DNA of 64,000 bases from Kozakia baliensis (lineage in GTDB: Bacteria > Pseudomonadota > Alphaproteobacteria > Acetobacterales > Acetobacteraceae). Below the pieces are notes generated by a model, which saw only the letters and a program-made list of their open reading frames with translations, was not told the origin of the DNA and did no database searches. Position 1 is the stretch's first letter. Each line of letters begins with the position of its first letter. Of this stretch, positions 14,203-21,618 are shown piece after piece. The DNA is taken from the NCBI RefSeq assembly GCF_001787335.1, contig NZ_CP014674.1, forward strand, positions 938,501 through 1,002,500, in the 5' to 3' direction. Position numbers and translations under genes: made by a program.

Positions 14203-15513
14203 ATGTCGCCTCTTGGATGCAAGGGAATGGTGGTGGCGTTCGGTGCCACGCTTATGTTGAGCGCATGTAGCAATCATCAGACGCCGCCGCCCGGTGTCGG
14301 CGGCATTCCCGCAGCGGATCAAGCGGCAGAGCAGCACGGAACCCGAATCGGGATGTTGTTGCCTTTGAGCGGGCGCAATATGCGCCTCGGTCAGCAGATG
14401 GCGAACGCCGCGCATCTGGCGCTGCCGGAGGGGCATGGCGCGGAACTCGATTTGCGCGATAGCGATGCCGCGGAGGGAGCCGCCGGTGCGGCGCGCGCCG
14501 CGATCGGGAATGGCGACAAAATCGTGCTTGGCCCGCTCACTGCGGCTCAAACGGGGGAAGTGGCGCCATTGGCCCAGGCCGCCAATATCCCGGAGTTGGC
14601 TTTCACCAGCGATTCGACGCAGGCGCGTCCCGGCGTTTGGACGATGGGGCTGACGCCGGAGCAGCAAGTGCAGCGCTTGGTGGAAGCTGCTCGCGGGCAA
14701 GGTAAAAAGAAATTCGCGGCGTTCCTACCGGACAATCAATTCGGGCATGTCATGGCGCAAGCCTTGATCAAAGCCTGTGCGGCAAGTGCTCTCGATTCGC
14801 CTAACGTCATATTCCATAGTCATGACGCCGCCGATATCGCGCAGAGCCTCAAGACATTGTCGGATTTCGATGCGCGTCAGAGCCAGGTTGCCTCTGCAAC
14901 GCCAGCGGAACCCGATGCAGTTAACCCAACCTCTGATCAACCTGCCGCAAATCCGCCAGCGAATGGCGATTCGGCTAATGCCGGAGCGCAAAGCGCTGCC
15001 AATCCACCGCAGCCCGCTTCCGCGCCATTTCCTGCGCCGCCGTTCGATGCGCTTCTCCTTGCCGATACCGGCTTGGATTTGGCCAATGTCATCAATGGTT
15101 TGAAAGCGAACAAGATCGATTCGAACCAAGTGCGTATTCTAGGACCCGCGCTGTGGAACGCTTTTGCGCTCAAACTCGGGGCACTGCATGGCGCATGGTT
15201 CGCCGCGCCAGATCCGGCCGCGCGTCGTAGCTATGTTCAGCATTATCGGGCACGCTACGGATCTGCACCATCGGTCATCGCTGATGTCGCTTATGATACG
15301 GCTGCGATGGCGGGGGCGTTGAGCCGGCAGGAAAACGGCTTTGCGTCATCTTCGTTGACACGAGCGGATGGTTTTGCGGGTGTCGATGGCGTTTTCGCGC
15401 TTCGTCCGGATGGGAACGTATCGCGTGGCCTTGCGGTATTCGAGGTTCTACCTGGCGGGGGAACGAAAATTGCGCTTCCTGCGCCCAGGCGTCTCAGCCA
15501 GACGCCAAGTTAA
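14203..15513 (+). CDS. LpoA-like penicillin-binding protein activator lipoprotein
   Basis: The product is about 436 residues and has a periplasmic binding protein type 1 fold like LpoA/LppC. From ATG 14203 it has a lipoprotein signal ending in the lipobox LSAC. The binding-protein core starts at IGMLLPLSGRNMRLGQQM and includes FAAFLPDNQFGHVMAQAL and YVQHYRARYGSAPSVIADVAYD. LpoA activates the peptidoglycan synthase PBP1A from the outer membrane. An Asn/Pro/Ala-rich segment of about 54 residues (coded by 14881-15042) interrupts the domain. The frame opens at 14149, but that start would add residues before the signal and overlap rsmI. The divergent rsmI neighbour supports the call. It may not activate a PBP in this organism. 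Confidence 0.8.
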   Translation: MSPLGCKGMVVAFGATLMLSACSNHQTPPPGVGGIPAADQAAEQHGTRIGMLLPLSGRNMRLGQQMANAAHLALPEGHGAELDLRDSDAAEGAAGAARAAIGNGDKIVLGPLTAAQTGEVAPLAQAANIPELAFTSDSTQARPGVWTMGLTPEQQVQRLVEAARGQGKKKFAAFLPDNQFGHVMAQALIKACAASALDSPNVIFHSHDAADIAQSLKTLSDFDARQSQVASATPAEPDAVNPTSDQPAANPPANGDSANAGAQSAANPPQPASAPFPAPPFDALLLADTGLDLANVINGLKANKIDSNQVRILGPALWNAFALKLGALHGAWFAAPDPAARRSYVQHYRARYGSAPSVIADVAYDTAAMAGALSRQENGFASSSLTRADGFAGVDGVFALRPDGNVSRGLAVFEVLPGGGTKIALPAPRRLSQTPS

Positions 15514-15527
15514 TATAATAAGGTGGG

Positions 15528-15552
15528 GCGGCGGCTTGCTTTAGGCCGCCGC
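15528..15552. terminator. GC-rich hairpin between convergent genes
   Basis: GCGGCGGC (15528-15535) and GCCGCCGC (15545-15552) can form an 8-bp stem with a 9-base loop between the stops of the lipoprotein gene and the hypothetical gene. It lacks a clear T run on either side and overlaps the Ala codons ending the hypothetical protein, so a terminator role is tentative. Confidence 0.3.
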
Positions 15553-15912
15553 GATGGATTTAAGCGGCAGGACCGGACGAACCCGGTGTAGGGCGAGTTC
15601 AAAACTGGCGTATACACCGAGTTCATGCTCACGGATTTGGTCGATCAACACCCAACGCAAACCTTTGGGACGGATCATATAGGCCGGATCGGCGTTTTCG
15701 CGCACCCAGATCAGAACATGTGCGATCATGTCTTTCTGTCCGGCATGATTGTCGAGCGCGATATCTGCGTCACAAATTCCCATACACGAACCGGCATCAA
15801 GCCAGCGCGACAGGTACTCGCGATGGCGAGGAAGCACGCTAAAGCGCAGCGGAATCACATTTCCGTGAAATGACGAGGGTTCCTGGTCGAAAACCGGCAG
15901 TGCCTGGGGCAT
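15541..15912 (-). CDS. Conserved-looking hypothetical protein
   Basis: A 123-residue reading frame with codon use like its neighbours, ending 28 bases from the convergent lipoprotein gene. I do not recognise the family. It has no signal peptide or membrane helix. Two Cys residues lie in GSCMGICDADIALDN, and later there is a mixed hydrophobic/charged stretch (HVLIWVRENADPAYMIRP) suggesting a small globular cytoplasmic protein. GGACG lies a few bases before the start. A GC-rich hairpin overlaps its last codons (15528-15552). It could be a lineage-specific acetic acid bacterial protein. Confidence 0.65.
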   Translation of the reverse strand: MPQALPVFDQEPSSFHGNVIPLRFSVLPRHREYLSRWLDAGSCMGICDADIALDNHAGQKDMIAHVLIWVRENADPAYMIRPKGLRWVLIDQIREHELGVYASFELALHRVRPVLPLKSIAAA

Positions 15913-16026
15913 GCGTTGCGTCCTTTCGTATGGGTCTGACCATAGGCTAAACAGCGCCTCGCCGACTCCACAACGTCAAAAATGCACTCCACTCCCTATT
16001 TTGGAGAAAACGGGTCATATTGTTGC

Positions 16027-16055
16027 AAAAAAGCAATGCCAGTTATGGCATTGCT
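16027..16055 (-). terminator. Rho-independent terminator of the kdtA-lpxK-lpxL operon
   Basis: A perfect 10-bp inverted repeat, AGCAATGCCA (16032-16041) and TGGCATTGCT (16046-16055), has a 4-base loop. Read on the minus strand it is followed by six T residues (complement of the A run at 16027-16032). It lies 32 bases past the lpxL stop, the expected place for termination of that operon. Confidence 0.8.
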
Positions 16056-16086
16056 CCTATGACGTGTACGCAATGGTCGAAGGCGC

Positions 16087-17019
16087 TCAATGCATTTTCT
16101 CAACATGTGAGCGCATCAGTTCCTTGGGCCAGCGCCGATGGAGCCATAGCCAGCTTCCCGGCTTTGCCCGAACCCATGTTTCGATTTGATCGTTGAGGCG
16201 TTGGGTGAGGCGCAGGATGTCCGCCTGCCGATCACCGGTATTTTCCGGAATAATGGCAGGCTCGACGATCAGTTTGAGTCGCGCGGGGCCGATTCGTTCG
16301 ATGCGGCCAGCCACGATGGGGCAGTTATGCTTGAGCGCGAACGCTGCCGTGGCAGAGGCGCTCATTGCGGGATGGCCGAACAATTGCGCTTCGATGCCGT
16401 CATTCATTTTCTGATCGCCAAGCACGCCCAGATGGCCGCCTTGCGCGATATGGCGTAGCGCGCCGCGTGCTCCTTGCGCGCCTTTGGCGAACATCGGCAC
16501 ATCCACGCCAATGGCGCGTCGTCGTAAATCTCCAATGATTCGATCCACCAATGGATTTCCAGCGGCGCGATAGAAAGAAGCGAAAGCCATACCGTAGGAG
16601 GCGACGGCAGGCGGTAGCATCTCCCAATTGCCAATATGGCCGGAGAAGAAAATGACTGGGCCGCCTTTCGCCGCAAGTTCGCGTAGCGTTTCGTCGCCCT
16701 CGACAAGCCAGCCCGGTCCGGATGGCGTATTTTTCTGCAACGAGGGGATATGAGGAAATTCCGCGACAGTGCGGCCGAGATTTTCCCATACTTCCTGAAC
16801 GATCTGCTGCCGTTGCCTGTTTGTCAGTTTCGGCATGGCGAGCCTCAGGTTCATATCCGCCACGTGCGATACGGGAAGATATGGACCGATCGCCTTGGTT
16901 ATATTGCCGCCAAGGTTGGAGGCTGCGCGGGGCGGGAGCTTACGCAGAAAAGCTAAAAGCGCGCGTACGAGCATGGCTTCGGCACGATGTGCCCAACTCG
17001 CTTCGGATTGTTTTTTCAC
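16087..17019 (-). CDS. lpxL: Lipid A biosynthesis acyltransferase, LpxL/HtrB family
   Basis: About 310 residues of the LpxL/LpxM acyltransferase family, which adds secondary acyl chains to Kdo-lipid A precursor at the inner membrane. The catalytic H-x4-D/E motif appears as SGHIGNWE, and PLVDRIIGDLRR, GVLGDQKMNDG and WLWLHRRWP complete the family pattern. The start is taken as GTG 17019, overlapping the lpxK TGA (GTGA). The open frame runs upstream inside lpxK in another frame, giving an Arg/Gly-rich tail that is not credible. It is third in the kdtA fusion-lpxK-lpxL operon. Which acyl position it serves cannot be told. Confidence 0.88.
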   Translation of the reverse strand: MKKQSEASWAHRAEAMLVRALLAFLRKLPPRAASNLGGNITKAIGPYLPVSHVADMNLRLAMPKLTNRQRQQIVQEVWENLGRTVAEFPHIPSLQKNTPSGPGWLVEGDETLRELAAKGGPVIFFSGHIGNWEMLPPAVASYGMAFASFYRAAGNPLVDRIIGDLRRRAIGVDVPMFAKGAQGARGALRHIAQGGHLGVLGDQKMNDGIEAQLFGHPAMSASATAAFALKHNCPIVAGRIERIGPARLKLIVEPAIIPENTGDRQADILRLTQRLNDQIETWVRAKPGSWLWLHRRWPKELMRSHVEKMH

Positions 17020-18002
17020 GCCGTCGCCCAGAGCCGATCGAGCAGGCGTTCCGGCGCATCGGGATCGGACCAGCGAAGTTCCACGTTGATCACTTTGACT
17101 TCCGGCAACATCCGCTCCGGGAGCTTCACGGCATCCTTGGCGGTCGTGACGAGCTGCACGCCCTCTTGACGTCCCAATGCCAGCAGGCGCCGGCAATCTC
17201 GCTCGTTATAACGATGGTGATCCGCAAAAGGGATGCAGCGCAGCAGCGGTAGTCCCGCTTCCGTCAGCATATCGAAGAACTTATCCGGACGTGCGATGCC
17301 AGCGAAGGCAATCAGTCGCTTGCCTTGCAGCCGCCGAATTTCCGGACCTGGAATTAAACGGGCCTGCAATCGCCATAAATCGTTTGGAATATGCGGCAGA
17401 AGATCGGTTCGGTCCTCTCCGATCATGACCAGCCCATCGGCTTCGGCCAACCCTTTGGCCGCAGGCTCGCGTAAAGGCCCGGCTGGCATGACGCGACCAT
17501 TGCCGAAGCCCGTTGCGCCATCGACGGTGATGATACGCATGTTTTGGTGCAGCGTATGGTTCTGAAGCCCGTCATCCATGATGAGACAATCGGCACCCTC
17601 CGCACAGGCCATTCGTGCCGTCTCGCCGCGATTGGCGCCGATCCAAACCGGCGCGGTTTTGGCGAGCATGAAAGGCTCATCCCCGACATCGTTTGCCGTA
17701 TGCCGGGCGAGATCGACCCGTAACGGGCCTTTTTCCTGGCCACCATAACCACGGCTGAGAATATGCGGGTGACGCCCTCGCGCTTGTAAGCGCCGCGCGA
17801 AATCCAGCACCAGCGTCGTTTTTCCCGCGCCGCCGACCGTCAGATTTCCACAGCAGAGAACGGGTACGTCCACCATCACAGGCGCGGCGCGATAAGACCG
17901 TAAATGCCCAGCGCTTTGTAACAGCCAGGAAAGCGGTGTTAGCGCTTTCGCTTGCCAGGAAGGCTCGACTTGATTCCAAAATGACGGCGGCCCGAACTTC
18001 AT
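17016..18002 (-). CDS. lpxK: Tetraacyldisaccharide 4'-kinase LpxK
   Basis: A 328-residue membrane-associated kinase that phosphorylates the 4' position of tetraacyldisaccharide 1-phosphate, forming lipid IVA. It shows the P-loop-like GNLTVGGAGKTTLVL near residue 55, ILSRGYGG and the DD motif IMDDGLQNHTL, with IAFAGIARPDKFF in the C-terminal half. The length is normal. Its ATG overlaps the TAA of the upstream fusion gene (TAATG), and its stop overlaps the lpxL start, so the three genes are translationally coupled. Confidence 0.95.
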   Translation of the reverse strand: MKFGPPSFWNQVEPSWQAKALTPLSWLLQSAGHLRSYRAAPVMVDVPVLCCGNLTVGGAGKTTLVLDFARRLQARGRHPHILSRGYGGQEKGPLRVDLARHTANDVGDEPFMLAKTAPVWIGANRGETARMACAEGADCLIMDDGLQNHTLHQNMRIITVDGATGFGNGRVMPAGPLREPAAKGLAEADGLVMIGEDRTDLLPHIPNDLWRLQARLIPGPEIRRLQGKRLIAFAGIARPDKFFDMLTEAGLPLLRCIPFADHHRYNERDCRRLLALGRQEGVQLVTTAKDAVKLPERMLPEVKVINVELRWSDPDAPERLLDRLWATA

Positions 18003-19957
18003 TATAACAGCATATCGCTAATGCGTGTCAGCAGTGAGGCAGGAACGGCCTCGTTTTTCGAAATGCGTTTGCAGGCCGTTTCTGCCTGCTGCTGTGCTTT
18101 GTCGTTGTGCTGGAACGTGCCGATCATCCAGTCCGCCAGGTCGCGATCGTCTTTAACAATAGCAACGGTATCACCCAAACTTTCGAATGCGGGAGAAAAA
18201 TTGTCGGTTCGTGGGCCGGTAACAATCGGTGTTTTCAATCGCACCGGCTCGAAAGGATTATGGCCGCCACCAGGGGCGTTCATGGAATTGCCGATAAAGG
18301 CCCCTTGGGCCAGACGATAGAATAATCCCATCTCGCCCAAAGTGTCGGCAAGCCAAAATAAATCCTCGGCTTGAGGCGTTTCGTCCTTCGAGCGTCGGGG
18401 CGGGTGGTGGAGAATTTCCGCAACTGCATCGCTGCGGGCGGGATGCCGGGGCGCAACGATCATCAGCAGATCGGGGATTGCCTCACGCGCTAACGCTGCG
18501 GCGCGCGCCACGATTTCTTCCTCTCCTGGATGAGTGGAGGCGGCGAGGAAAATCGGTCTATTGCCGATCTGTTGGCGCAAGTATTCCACTTCCTGCGGAT
18601 CGGCGGCAGGCGGCGGGGCGATCTCTTTCAAATCGCCATATTCATGAACTTCCGAAACGCCTAATTCCGAGAAATGCTCGGCATCCCGGTGACCGCGTGC
18701 CGCGACGAAATCGAGGCGCGCAAAGAGCATGCGTAAGGAAGCCGGTAGGCGCTTCCAGCGCCGCCATGAGCGGGCGGAAAGCCGACCGTTGACGACGCCG
18801 ACTGGAATGGCTTGTCGGAAGCAGGCTCCGGTCAGGCCTGGCCACAATTCGCTATCGATCAAAACCAAAGCGTTCGGTTGCCAGTGGCGTAAGAAACGCT
18901 GATTCCAACGCGCTACGTCATAAGGAATGAATTGATGGCGCAGTTGGGCAGCCTGGGCGCTGGGTAGGGAAGTTCGATATGTGGCGATAATCTCCGCGCC
19001 GGTGACGGTGGCGGTGGTGACGAGGAAATTCAGCTTAGGGTGAATTTCCCTCAAAGCGTCGATTAATGGCAAAACGGATCGGCATTCGCCGACGCTCGCT
19101 GCATGAAGCCAGAGTAAATCGCCATAGGGTCGGTCGAGCGTCGTCCTGCCATAACGCTCGCTTATCCGTCCTTCGATTTCCCGTCCTTGTTCAAGGCGCT
19201 TTTGGAGAATGATTGGCAGCACCGGCGTGAGGAGAATCCCGACTAAATGCCAAACTCTGTCGGTGAAGGTGACGCGGCTTAATTTATAACGGCGCGCTGC
19301 CTCAGCGGATGTTTGATTGAGGGCCTGTGTGAGGTGATTGGTGCTCGTATGGGCGTCGAGCGGCGCGCCATAGACCAGTTCGCCGCGCCCGAAAGGCAGC
19401 GGAACCATCATTCGGTCCCAAGACGGCAAATGCAACGCCGTGCAAGCCGCGCCGATTGGGATGAGGGGGCGCTTGGCGAGGCGGGTCAGGCCCAAGGCAC
19501 CCGGTTGCACCACGCCTACCGGTCCGCGCGGCCCATCGGGCGTGATAGCGAGAATCGATCCATCGCGTAGAGCGGCGCAGGCCTCGTGTAAGGCACGCGC
19601 ACCTCCCTTATCCTTCCCCTTTTTCGCGCTGGAGCCTTCGATGCCGATAATACCCCAAGGCGCTACGGCGTCGTTGATTAAACGCCCGTCGCGATTGCGG
19701 CTGATCATCACCCTGAGGCGCAGACCGGTTTGCCGCTGTTGCGCCCATGTCCAGAGCGCTGGCAGGAGAAGCAACGAACGATGCCAAAAGGCGACGATCG
19801 CGCCTTTTGTCTCCAGCGGTTCGGCTTGAGTAAGAACGGGAACCGCCCGACGGTCGCCGGTGACGGTCCATTTCGTCGTGCGTAACGTAAAGCCGAGATA
19901 GGCACGCGCCATGACGCTCGGCCATGCCGCATGCCCGTCAGGCGGCGGCGTGTTCAT
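18002..19957 (-). CDS. Fusion of DUF374 acyltransferase and Kdo transferase (KdtA/WaaA)
   Basis: One uninterrupted 651-residue frame joins two proteins that are usually separate. Residues about 15-225 form a DUF374-type lysophospholipid acyltransferase domain with FWHR (57-60), SRNRDG and TPDGPRGP (139-146). From about 232, a hydrophobic anchor (VWHLVGILLTPVLPIIL) starts a complete 3-deoxy-D-manno-octulosonic acid transferase with LHAASVGE, whose Glu291 matches the catalytic base, and later IFLAASTHPGEEE and SMNAPGGGHNPFEP. KdtA adds Kdo to lipid IVA. In many alphaproteobacteria DUF374, kdtA and lpxK are neighbouring genes, so fusion of the first two is a natural explanation. No frame break is seen. 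The function of DUF374 is not established. Confidence 0.92.
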   Translation of the reverse strand: MNTPPPDGHAAWPSVMARAYLGFTLRTTKWTVTGDRRAVPVLTQAEPLETKGAIVAFWHRSLLLLPALWTWAQQRQTGLRLRVMISRNRDGRLINDAVAPWGIIGIEGSSAKKGKDKGGARALHEACAALRDGSILAITPDGPRGPVGVVQPGALGLTRLAKRPLIPIGAACTALHLPSWDRMMVPLPFGRGELVYGAPLDAHTSTNHLTQALNQTSAEAARRYKLSRVTFTDRVWHLVGILLTPVLPIILQKRLEQGREIEGRISERYGRTTLDRPYGDLLWLHAASVGECRSVLPLIDALREIHPKLNFLVTTATVTGAEIIATYRTSLPSAQAAQLRHQFIPYDVARWNQRFLRHWQPNALVLIDSELWPGLTGACFRQAIPVGVVNGRLSARSWRRWKRLPASLRMLFARLDFVAARGHRDAEHFSELGVSEVHEYGDLKEIAPPPAADPQEVEYLRQQIGNRPIFLAASTHPGEEEIVARAAALAREAIPDLLMIVAPRHPARSDAVAEILHHPPRRSKDETPQAEDLFWLADTLGEMGLFYRLAQGAFIGNSMNAPGGGHNPFEPVRLKTPIVTGPRTDNFSPAFESLGDTVAIVKDDRDLADWMIGTFQHNDKAQQQAETACKRISKNEAVPASLLTRISDMLL

Positions 19958-20028
19958 AGGGCCAGGCGGGAACAGTTCAACATTGATGCGGCGGTAGCAT
20001 GACGGGGACGGGAAGGCAAAAAAACGGA

Positions 20029-20916
20029 TCAGCGACTCATGAGAACGACCAGTTTTGCCTTTTCCAACACATGGCGCGTAACGCCACCGATAATCATCTG
20101 GCGCAAGCGAGAATGGGAATAAGCGCCCATCGCCAGCATGTCCGCTCCGAACTCTTGACAGGCTTCGAGCAGACCGACGCCGACATTGCGCTCCTTACTA
20201 CCGAACGGCGCGATGGTAGCCTGGATGCCATGCAACTGAAGGTAGTCTAGCACTTTCTCCGCTTCCGGCCCGCGGCGATGATATTCTGGGCTATAAAGTA
20301 CCTGAACCTCGTCGGCTTGGTGCGCCCAGGGCAAAACGGCGCGCAATGCCGCTGACGCTTCGGACGTACCGTTCCAGGCGATGCAGATACGCTTTCCAAA
20401 TGTTTTCGGCGGTTCCACCGGCGCAATGACAAGCGGCCGTCCGCTATCGAACAGCACCGCATGCAGCGTTTCGGAGGCGCGTACATTATCGGTCAGGGAA
20501 AGGTGAGGCATTAACGTCATGTCGGAGAGGCGCGCGCGCCATGTGACGGCTTCGTGCTCGGAACCGGTCAGAAGCTCCAAGGTGGCGCTGACACGATCGC
20601 CCTCCGGCAGGCGCTCAGGAACGAAGGTATGTTCTCTGACGATGCCATGCTCTTCGACGAAGCTGTCGAATTTCAGCCTGATCTGAAGCATGCGCCGCTG
20701 CGATTCGTGCTCGGCTGCCTCCATCATCTCATGGATCATGGCACCCGAAAGTCCTTCGCCCGCCAAAGCCGCGGCTTCGTTGGGATCGTCGCCGACAAGC
20801 ACGGTCGATAGATGCGCGTTGAAAAGCTTGGCGTAGGCGAAACCCGTTTTTAAGACGGAGTCGATGTTGCCGCCACCATTGAGCGGGATGAGGATGTTGC
20901 GGATTTCACTATACAT
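20029..20916 (-). CDS. Two-domain universal stress protein (UspA family)
   Basis: The 295-residue product contains two tandem Usp folds. The first begins NILIPLNGGGNIDSVLKTGFAYAKLF. The second begins RICIAWNGTSEASAALRAVLPWA and ends with the nucleotide-binding-like stretch MGAYSHSRLRQMIIGGVTRHVL. Tandem Usp proteins are cytoplasmic and respond to stress, often binding ATP through G-x2-G-x9-G-S/T in the C-terminal domain. Here the last motif is close to but not exactly canonical. It is downstream of pdxH on the same strand, with a 90-base gap. Confidence 0.88.
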   Translation of the reverse strand: MYSEIRNILIPLNGGGNIDSVLKTGFAYAKLFNAHLSTVLVGDDPNEAAALAGEGLSGAMIHEMMEAAEHESQRRMLQIRLKFDSFVEEHGIVREHTFVPERLPEGDRVSATLELLTGSEHEAVTWRARLSDMTLMPHLSLTDNVRASETLHAVLFDSGRPLVIAPVEPPKTFGKRICIAWNGTSEASAALRAVLPWAHQADEVQVLYSPEYHRRGPEAEKVLDYLQLHGIQATIAPFGSKERNVGVGLLEACQEFGADMLAMGAYSHSRLRQMIIGGVTRHVLEKAKLVVLMSR

Positions 20917-21006
20917 TTTGCTTCCTCAAGACGATGGCAGGCCTGCGTTCGATTTTGGTAACGCGTGAAAACTCGTTTCGTTGGCGTGGGGCTGCGGCGT
21001 TTTCGA

Positions 21007-21618
21007 TTAGGGATAGAGTCGCGTTACGTCCCAACCTTCGCCCTCACGCGTCCATGTGGCGCGATCATGCATGCGGTAGGGGCGATCCTGCCAAAATTCA
21101 ATTATTTGCGGGATAACGCGAAAGCCCGACCAGTTCGGCGGTCGCGGTGGCTCTTGGCCTTCGTAACGCGCTGTCGCTTCGGCGATGCGATGCTCGAAAA
21201 TCGCACGATCGGGGAGAGGACGCGATTGGTCGGAGGCGATGGCGCCCAGCCGGGAGTTACGGCTGCGACTGGCGAAATAACGATCGGCCTCTTCGTCCGA
21301 AACGCGCTCCACTGGCCCTTCGATGCGAATTTGCCGACGTAGCGATTTCCAATGAAACAGGAGCGCGGCCTGAGGGTTGGCTTCCAGCTCTTCGCCCTTG
21401 CGGCTTTCTAGGTTGGTATAAAAAACGAAGCCGCGGCGGTCCGCTCCTTTAAGAAGGATAGTGCGGACGGAAGGGCGGCCATCCGGCGTGGCGGTCGCCA
21501 ATGCCATGGCGTTGGGATCGTTCGGCTCATGGGCTTCCGCTTCCCGCATCCAGGTGGCGAAAAGATCGAAAGGATCCGCTTGCAGATCGAGCAGTGGCGG
21601 CGCGTTTTCGGCAGTCAC
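21007..21618 (-). CDS. pdxH: Pyridoxamine 5'-phosphate oxidase PdxH
   Basis: A 203-residue FMN-dependent oxidase converting pyridoxamine or pyridoxine phosphate to pyridoxal phosphate. Family motifs are clear: [54 protein letters not shown] and the C-terminal [21 protein letters not shown]. The C-terminal RLYP is normal for PdxH. It is divergent from fabI, with 137 bases between the starts. Confidence 0.97.

Follow-up and report, generated by a model that had tools for sequence, protein, structure and literature searches.

A single gene of Kozakia baliensis (Acetobacteraceae) joins two late steps of lipid A synthesis in one polypeptide. It lies on the minus strand of a 64,000-nucleotide stretch of the genome (NCBI RefSeq assembly GCF_001787335.1, contig NZ_CP014674.1, positions 938,501 to 1,002,500), called the window below. 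The gene encodes a DUF374 domain, of the family of the lipid A acyltransferase LpxJ, followed by KdtA (WaaA), the transferase for 3-deoxy-D-manno-octulosonic acid (Kdo). We consider it likely that the product is a bifunctional enzyme, in which the LpxJ domain would acylate lipid A and KdtA would transfer Kdo, the other secondary chain coming from a separate lpxL. The fusion, present in many acetic acid bacteria, probably explains where these keep their missing second lipid A acyltransferase. Both activities were known before; their union in one protein is new as far as the literature searched goes, and full-text searches of open-licence literature found no description of a DUF374/LpxJ-KdtA fusion. 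The gene and its parts, all on the minus strand, are as follows (window coordinates).

18002..19957, minus strand: fused lpxJ-kdtA gene, 651 amino acids (Pfam, NCBIfam; one-frame fusion in 42 of 80 named loci)
19358..19918, minus strand: LpxJ-like acyltransferase domain, residues 14-200 (Pfam; fold search of the domain model)
19520-19729, minus strand: Pfam DUF374 proper, residues 77-146 (Pfam)
19781..19786, minus strand: W58-H59, motif equivalent of Rickettsia typhi LpxJ W60-H61, the proposed catalytic base (conservation; mutagenesis in PMC6148475)
19688..19690, minus strand: D90, motif equivalent of R. typhi LpxJ D86 (conservation; PMC6148475)
19535..19537, minus strand: D141 of TPDGPRGP, motif equivalent of R. 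typhi LpxJ D132 (conservation; PMC6148475)
19415..19420, minus strand: W180-D181, motif equivalent of R. typhi LpxJ W172-D173 (conservation; PMC6148475)
19253..19357, minus strand: linker, residues 201-235, which retains the carboxyl-terminal helix of the LpxJ part
18005..19252, minus strand: KdtA/WaaA Kdo transferase with amino-terminal anchor helices, residues 236-651 (Pfam, NCBIfam, WaaA structures, model)
18626-19168, minus strand: Pfam Glycos_transf_N within the KdtA part (Pfam)

A sequence-only reading of the window had described one uninterrupted frame carrying FWHR and TPDGPRGP motifs and then a full Kdo transferase, and it was right on each point. The frame is open from ATG to stop; FWHR occupies residues 57-60 and TPDGPRGP residues 139-146; and a complete KdtA, including its anchor helices, occupies residues ~235-650, carboxyl-terminal to the DUF374 domain. 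Pfam finds DUF374 in the amino-terminal part (residues 77-146; 71.4 bits against a curated cut-off of 26.8, E 4.7e-20) and Glycos_transf_N at residues 264-444 (173.9 bits, cut-off 23.9, E 3.1e-51). Five NCBIfam KdtA models (the PRK05749 models) match from residues 235-241 on, and the WaaA structures 2xci and 4bfc match the KdtA half by sequence, over both halves of WaaA. A profile search of the whole K. baliensis genome gives a single DUF374 match, and a BLAST search of that genome with the fused protein found this one place and no second match.

An internal start yielding an additional, separate KdtA was considered and rejected: residues 195-245 of the window gene contain no in-frame ATG, GTG, or TTG. 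Among 40 aligned fusions (the window's own plus 39 of 42 from named genomes, three near-duplicates being left out), 6 lack any start in the matching linker stretch, and 5 have a start preceded by a Shine-Dalgarno-like word.

The same reading had called the function of DUF374 not established, which is outdated. DUF374 proteins are LpxJ, lipid A secondary acyltransferases (PMC6148475, PMC6286764; statements from these two papers, and from PMC8036547, PMC6915089, and PMC3035290, are drawn from excerpts). Its hint that DUF374 works in lipid A synthesis was sound, LpxJ placing its secondary chain on the 3' primary one. Because the family had already been characterized, the fusion is not the first clue to its function. 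In Escherichia coli, the chain that R. typhi LpxJ attaches at the 3' primary chain of lipid A is C14 or C16 (PMC6148475). Mutation of W60, H61, D86, D132, W172, or D173 abolishes its activity, and H84 is dispensable (PMC6148475). Of three epsilonproteobacterial LpxJ enzymes, none requires Kdo, and the one from Helicobacter pylori was shown to acylate the 3' chain (PMC6286764). The Campylobacter jejuni enzyme puts its chain on the 3' primary acyl group of a hybrid backbone of 2,3-diamino-2,3-dideoxyglucose (GlcN3N) and glucosamine (PMC7956469).

The motif equivalents of the six critical residues (W58, H59, D90, D141, W180, and D181) are invariant in all 40 aligned fusions, in which Asn replaces the non-essential His (R. 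typhi H84). Counted over 64 fused frames (43 named, 20 unnamed, and the window's own; some genomes appear twice, and the doubtful G610 is included), the full set of six occurs in 62. Of the remaining two, L145 is cut off in this stretch and G842, from another family of the class, carries Ser for D181. W58-H59 is present in 63 of the 64. Nine aligned unfused DUF374 domains also keep the six residues; the unfused G039 protein has Glu for D90. The HX4D/E motif does not occur at the catalytic His: the residues there are H59-RSLL-L64, and Asp or Glu is absent from that position in all 63 frames with a letter.

An AlphaFold2 model of the fusion, built on a 70-row alignment, has a mean predicted local distance difference test score (pLDDT) of 93.0 and a predicted template modelling score (pTM) of 0.89. 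Foldseek matches the carboxyl-terminal half of the model to WaaA (2xci, E 1.8e-17; 4bfc, E 3.1e-12), and matches the amino-terminal domain, modelled alone (pLDDT 88.6), to a plant GPAT (E 2.2e-6). VIA matches for this domain are GPAT (Z 13.5), PatA (12.3), PlsC (12.2), and LpxM (10.1, 5kn7), with the next rows from 6.7; the complex I assembly chain 7zkq_T is also among the matches (Z 10.1). The fold of the domain is predicted to be GPAT/PlsC/PatA/LpxM-like.

Purifying selection keeps both halves. In 12 pairs of fused genes, the ratio of nonsynonymous to synonymous substitution rates (dN/dS) is 0.01-0.10 for the LpxJ core and 0.06-0.17 for KdtA, with synonymous changes near saturation in some pairs; the linker gives 0 to 0.51 in the 10 of 12 pairs for which it is computable. 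The LpxJ value is equal to or lower than the KdtA value in 11 of the 12 pairs, the exception being L117-L124 (0.07 versus 0.06). This constraint, together with the six residues kept in nearly every fused frame, makes it quite unlikely that the amino-terminal domain is no longer an enzyme and acts as a membrane tether or regulator of KdtA. Such a role would fit the retention of kdtA without the domain in Komagataeibacter, Bombella, and others, and the Ser that follows the Trp in the outlying fusion G842.

Between a strand and a helix, the acyltransferase domain also carries an insert rich in Lys, KKGKDKGG (residues 111-119; 19601-19627). Its G114, K115, K117, G118, and G119 do not vary among the 40 aligned fusions, and model confidence there is low; of the 64 fused frames, 57 retain K115 and 61 retain K117. 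Most unfused relatives have GSS-[ST]-RGG at this position, and the near relatives G085 and G055 have a similar insert. Both are unfused, and the insert was rejected as a mark of fusion. It is a possible docking site for acyl carrier protein (ACP) or an unusual sugar.

The fusion is widespread among relatives. Named bacterial genomes were scanned with the group's LpxK alignment, and the best 80 of 319 relatives were kept; this named set therefore leans to acetic acid bacteria. A script sorted the 80 loci into 43 fused, 27 whose locus has kdtA and lacks DUF374, 9 in which the two genes are separate, and 1 with no kdtA on the stretch. Both domains are whole in one frame in 42 of the 43 fused loci; in Asaia astilbis L145 the DUF374 part is interrupted by a frame break. 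The fusion is present in all sampled Gluconobacter, Neokomagataea, Tanticharoenia, and Swaminathania; in the Asaia loci, L145 with its break; in 10 of 12 Acetobacter, including A. pasteurianus (676 amino acids); and in Gluconacetobacter diazotrophicus and sacchari. The domain is missing from loci of Komagataeibacter, Novacetimonas, Gluconacetobacter entanii, Saccharibacter, Bombella, and some uncultured relatives, as well as from two Acetobacter loci: uncultured L126, and A. okinawensis L129, in which kdtA itself is split over two frames. No convincing domain remnant was found in any of 42 loci lacking DUF374 (best tblastn E 0.058). In L141 and L135, which lack the domain, the universal stress gene stands directly upstream of kdtA, as if the domain had been cleanly excised.

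Where DUF374 is unfused, it neighbors kdtA, as the sequence-only reading had stated for many alphaproteobacteria: 16 of 17 such loci examined have the order DUF374-kdtA-lpxK (in the exception, L085, there is no kdtA on the stretch), and lpxL is on the same stretch in 8 of those 16. In an even family sample of 150 Acetobacteraceae genomes, DUF374 occurs in 123 and shares one frame with KdtA in at least 18 (window included; gene pairs at contig ends are partly covered). Another 18 have a KdtA match without DUF374, G134, G135, and G141 being assigned by elimination; 15 of these 18 genomes were fetched, three assemblies 77-87% complete being left out. More broadly, of 385 genomes from the class, 240 have a DUF374 match, and of 299 from the phylum, 129 do. 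Five frames of at least 600 residues outside the family, among the matches listed, were examined. Only G842 contains a fusion; G176, G262, G888, and G767 were rejected, kdtA lying in another frame or not being found there. Neither G640 (a 641-residue frame with a DUF374 match below cut-off) nor G904 (589 residues) was counted. The fusion count in the class is thus a lower bound, and others may be missed.

A missed stop or an indel can join two neighboring genes, and artefacts of this kind do occur in this very pair. In G610 (L190) the two genes are joined only because a G run is one base shorter than in a relative of 94.6% identity, and the linker is frame-shifted; 17 of the 19 DUF374-bearing genomes of its genus have open frames of just 213-309 residues, and G610 is not counted as a fusion. 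Conversely, one extra base splits the gene of G565 (L191) relative to the 99% identical fused G. diazotrophicus gene. Because single-base differences in the linker can fuse or split the pair, annotation of this locus from one genome alone is unreliable. Two sequences of a single G. diazotrophicus strain are annotated differently at several places, DUF374 included (PMC3035290, excerpt); this is consistent with, though no proof of, a frame difference in the fused gene. For the K. baliensis gene, an artefact is extremely improbable. The fusion recurs in one frame in those 42 named loci, in tens of species, including every sampled Gluconobacter and Asaia except the broken L145; the linker keeps the carboxyl-terminal LpxJ helix in frame; and both halves of the related fusions are under purifying selection. 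Sequencing error is thereby rejected as the cause for the clade and is apparently real in G610.

In-frame fusions of DUF374 and KdtA apparently arose more than once, at least three times. A 58-row tree of KdtA, LpxK, and LpxL, made by a quick method and with one very long branch in an outgroup that is not clean, gives 7 state changes for fusion and 6 for absence of the domain. Most simply, the crown acetic acid bacteria were ancestrally fused, with losses in Komagataeibacter/Novacetimonas, in Saccharibacter/Bombella, and in the L126 lineage. On a tree of the acyltransferase domain, a single clade of all 27 fused rows is rejected by the approximately unbiased (AU) test (p-AU 0.002), as is a clade of the crown rows plus G070, which adjoins the crown (0.003); the 25 crown rows alone are not rejected (0.088). 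The clades to be tested were chosen with a first tree already in view, and the crown includes the unfused G039. Because the first two groupings are rejected and the crown alone is not, G042 is most likely a separate fusion. G842 (L187:2932-4974), the sole genome of its family compared, holds an apparently independent one. Its DUF374 part has TADVPPGP instead of TPDGPRGP and W-S instead of W-D, and acyltransferase activity of this domain is doubtful, judging from these motifs. In G039 (L103), DUF374 and kdtA overlap as TAATG, yet the DUF374 groups with fused ones. This genome and others of genus g40 are small and have short DUF374 frames of ~230-240 residues; the arrangement is possibly a gene fission.

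How might the fused enzyme act? Presumably it sits on the cytoplasmic face of the inner membrane. Its LpxJ domain would use His59 and Asp141 to transfer an acyl chain whose donor is presumably acyl-ACP; the acceptor would be the 3-hydroxyl on a primary chain of lipid A, most likely that at 3'. The KdtA domain would transfer Kdo from CMP-Kdo (the cytidine monophosphate form) to the 6' position of the same precursor, and the separate lpxL, two places downstream, would add the other secondary chain (2'). Because described LpxJ enzymes act before or after Kdo, either order of acylation and Kdo transfer is possible inside the fusion. An active domain with another acceptor or position (the 2' chain, the proximal sugar, or a different lipid) is unlikely, given the gene order with lpxK and lpxL and the 3' specificity of characterized LpxJ enzymes, including that of C. 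jejuni on the same hybrid backbone. That alternative draws on the variation of LpxJ enzymes in substrate and chain length (PMC6148475, PMC6286764) and on the unusual lipid A of these bacteria, which contains GlcN3N, D-glycero-D-talo-oct-2-ulosonic acid (Ko), and mannose and glucuronic acid in place of phosphate (PMC8036547).

Acylation by the fused LpxJ domain would fit what is reported of lipid A in the group. A model of A. pasteurianus 386B has a single ortholog for two late acyl transfers (PMC6915089), and lipid A is reported as hexa-acylated in A. pasteurianus and penta-acylated in Granulibacter (PMC8036547). The A. pasteurianus LMG 1262 genome has one LpxL-family match and one DUF374 match, the latter fused in a 679-residue open frame. 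The fused LpxJ domain is the obvious candidate for the second late acyltransferase wanting in the model. Among 20 chosen named genomes, every one of the 12 with the fusion has a single DUF374 and the other 8 have none (3 Komagataeibacter, 1 Novacetimonas, 2 Bombella, and 2 Saccharibacter). Those 8 have one LpxL-family match in 6 cases and a second, partial match in 2. In the family sample, a single LpxL-family match was found in 13 of the 15 fetched DUF374-less genomes versus 11 of 18 fused ones. From the absence of DUF374 together with a mostly single LpxL-family match, lipid A of the bacteria without the domain, these Komagataeibacter, Novacetimonas, Bombella, and Saccharibacter included, is predicted to be at most penta-acyl. 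Literature searches found no lipid A structure of Komagataeibacter or Gluconobacter.

Several points weigh against a bifunctional acyl and Kdo transferase. No NCBIfam KdtA model reaches its own equivalog cut-off (the best scores 306.5 bits against 438), so that the KdtA assignment rests on Pfam and the solved WaaA structures. The critical residues were matched to R. typhi LpxJ by motif rather than by alignment. The A. pasteurianus genome, model (386B), and lipid A data come from different strains, and the penta-acyl side of the comparison, Granulibacter, comes from published lipid A data. A second LpxL-family match, in 7 of the 18 fused family genomes, could also add a chain. Finally, the two activities, the position acylated, and any benefit from the fusion are inferred from sequence and models.

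As to such a benefit, the fusion may tentatively be seen as selected for coupling Kdo transfer and 3' acylation on one membrane-bound protein, the precursor passing between the domains without release. Coupling, if true, would explain the at least three apparent fusions and the retention of the gene in most acetic acid bacteria.

Four known systems offer comparison. With LpxJ of R. typhi, H. pylori, and C. jejuni, the K. baliensis domain shares the DUF374 family, the W-H, D, TPDGPRGP D, and W-D motifs, the lack of an HX4D/E motif, an LPLAT-type fold, and the lipid A context; it differs in its fusion to KdtA (the LpxJ proteins described in the excerpts stand alone), its Lys-rich insert, and its Asn for the non-essential His84. 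With WaaA/KdtA (GT30; Aquifex aeolicus 2xci, Acinetobacter baumannii 4bfc), the protein shares Glycos_transf_N and CMP-Kdo binding halves, a HAASVGE motif, and helices ahead of the first Rossmann domain, whereas its ~235 extra amino-terminal residues are a second enzyme domain. The unfused DUF374-kdtA-lpxK cluster of other Acetobacteraceae and Alphaproteobacteria has the same genes in the same order, often overlapping, but encodes them as separate polypeptides. LpxM/MsbB, whose fold is distantly related (5kn7, Z 10.1), is likewise a source of a second secondary acyl chain; it belongs to a different family (PF03279), has a His-Glu motif, stands alone, and acts after LpxL in E. coli.

The neighboring genes run in the same direction.

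17016..18002, minus strand: lpxK, lipid A 4'-kinase (Pfam LpxK E 3.2e-87; TIGR00682 above its cut-off)
16087..17019, minus strand: lpxL-type late acyltransferase, proposed GTG start at 17019 (Pfam Lip_A_acyltrans E 9.2e-45)
15541..15912, minus strand: conserved 123-amino-acid open reading frame closing the same gene order, no Pfam match (same place in many relatives)
20029..20916, minus strand: universal stress protein gene, co-directional, directly upstream of the fused gene (Pfam Usp E 7.4e-12)

The fused gene ends at 18002, where lpxK starts, with one base in common (TAATG). The lpxK and lpxL genes overlap by four bases (GTGA) if lpxL starts with the GTG at 17019; its mechanical open reading frame begins ahead of this, at 17196. 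The lipid A operon described in the sequence-only reading stands, lpxK and lpxL overlapping in series. The fused gene probably heads it; the co-directional universal stress gene ends 71 bases upstream. That gene has the same upstream position in Asaia and Swaminathania. No sigma-70-like promoter was seen in 15300-21200. The 123-amino-acid frame recurs at its place in many relatives, and Acetobacter loci are without it. Elsewhere in the K. baliensis genome, L205 (G000 C1:490702-491379) encodes a second, weak LpxL-family protein (32.2 bits). By eye, one neighboring frame resembles an adenylation enzyme and another LolA; the protein may be an acyltransferase of another pathway.

Together, these results may supply a missing step in the lipid A synthesis of a food-relevant group, with a second late acyltransferase hidden in a Kdo transferase. 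They allow a testable prediction of acyl number from genotype: hexa-acyl is expected with the fused domain and penta-acyl without it. If the coupling proposed above is true, the loss of the acyltransferase half in Komagataeibacter/Novacetimonas, Saccharibacter/Bombella, and an Acetobacter lineage would amount to repeated switches from hexa- to penta-acyl lipid A. Vinegar, kombucha, and insect guts contain acetic acid bacteria, and acyl number affects the immune response to them. As a bifunctional enzyme already provided by nature, the protein would also suit tests of channelling between late lipid A steps.

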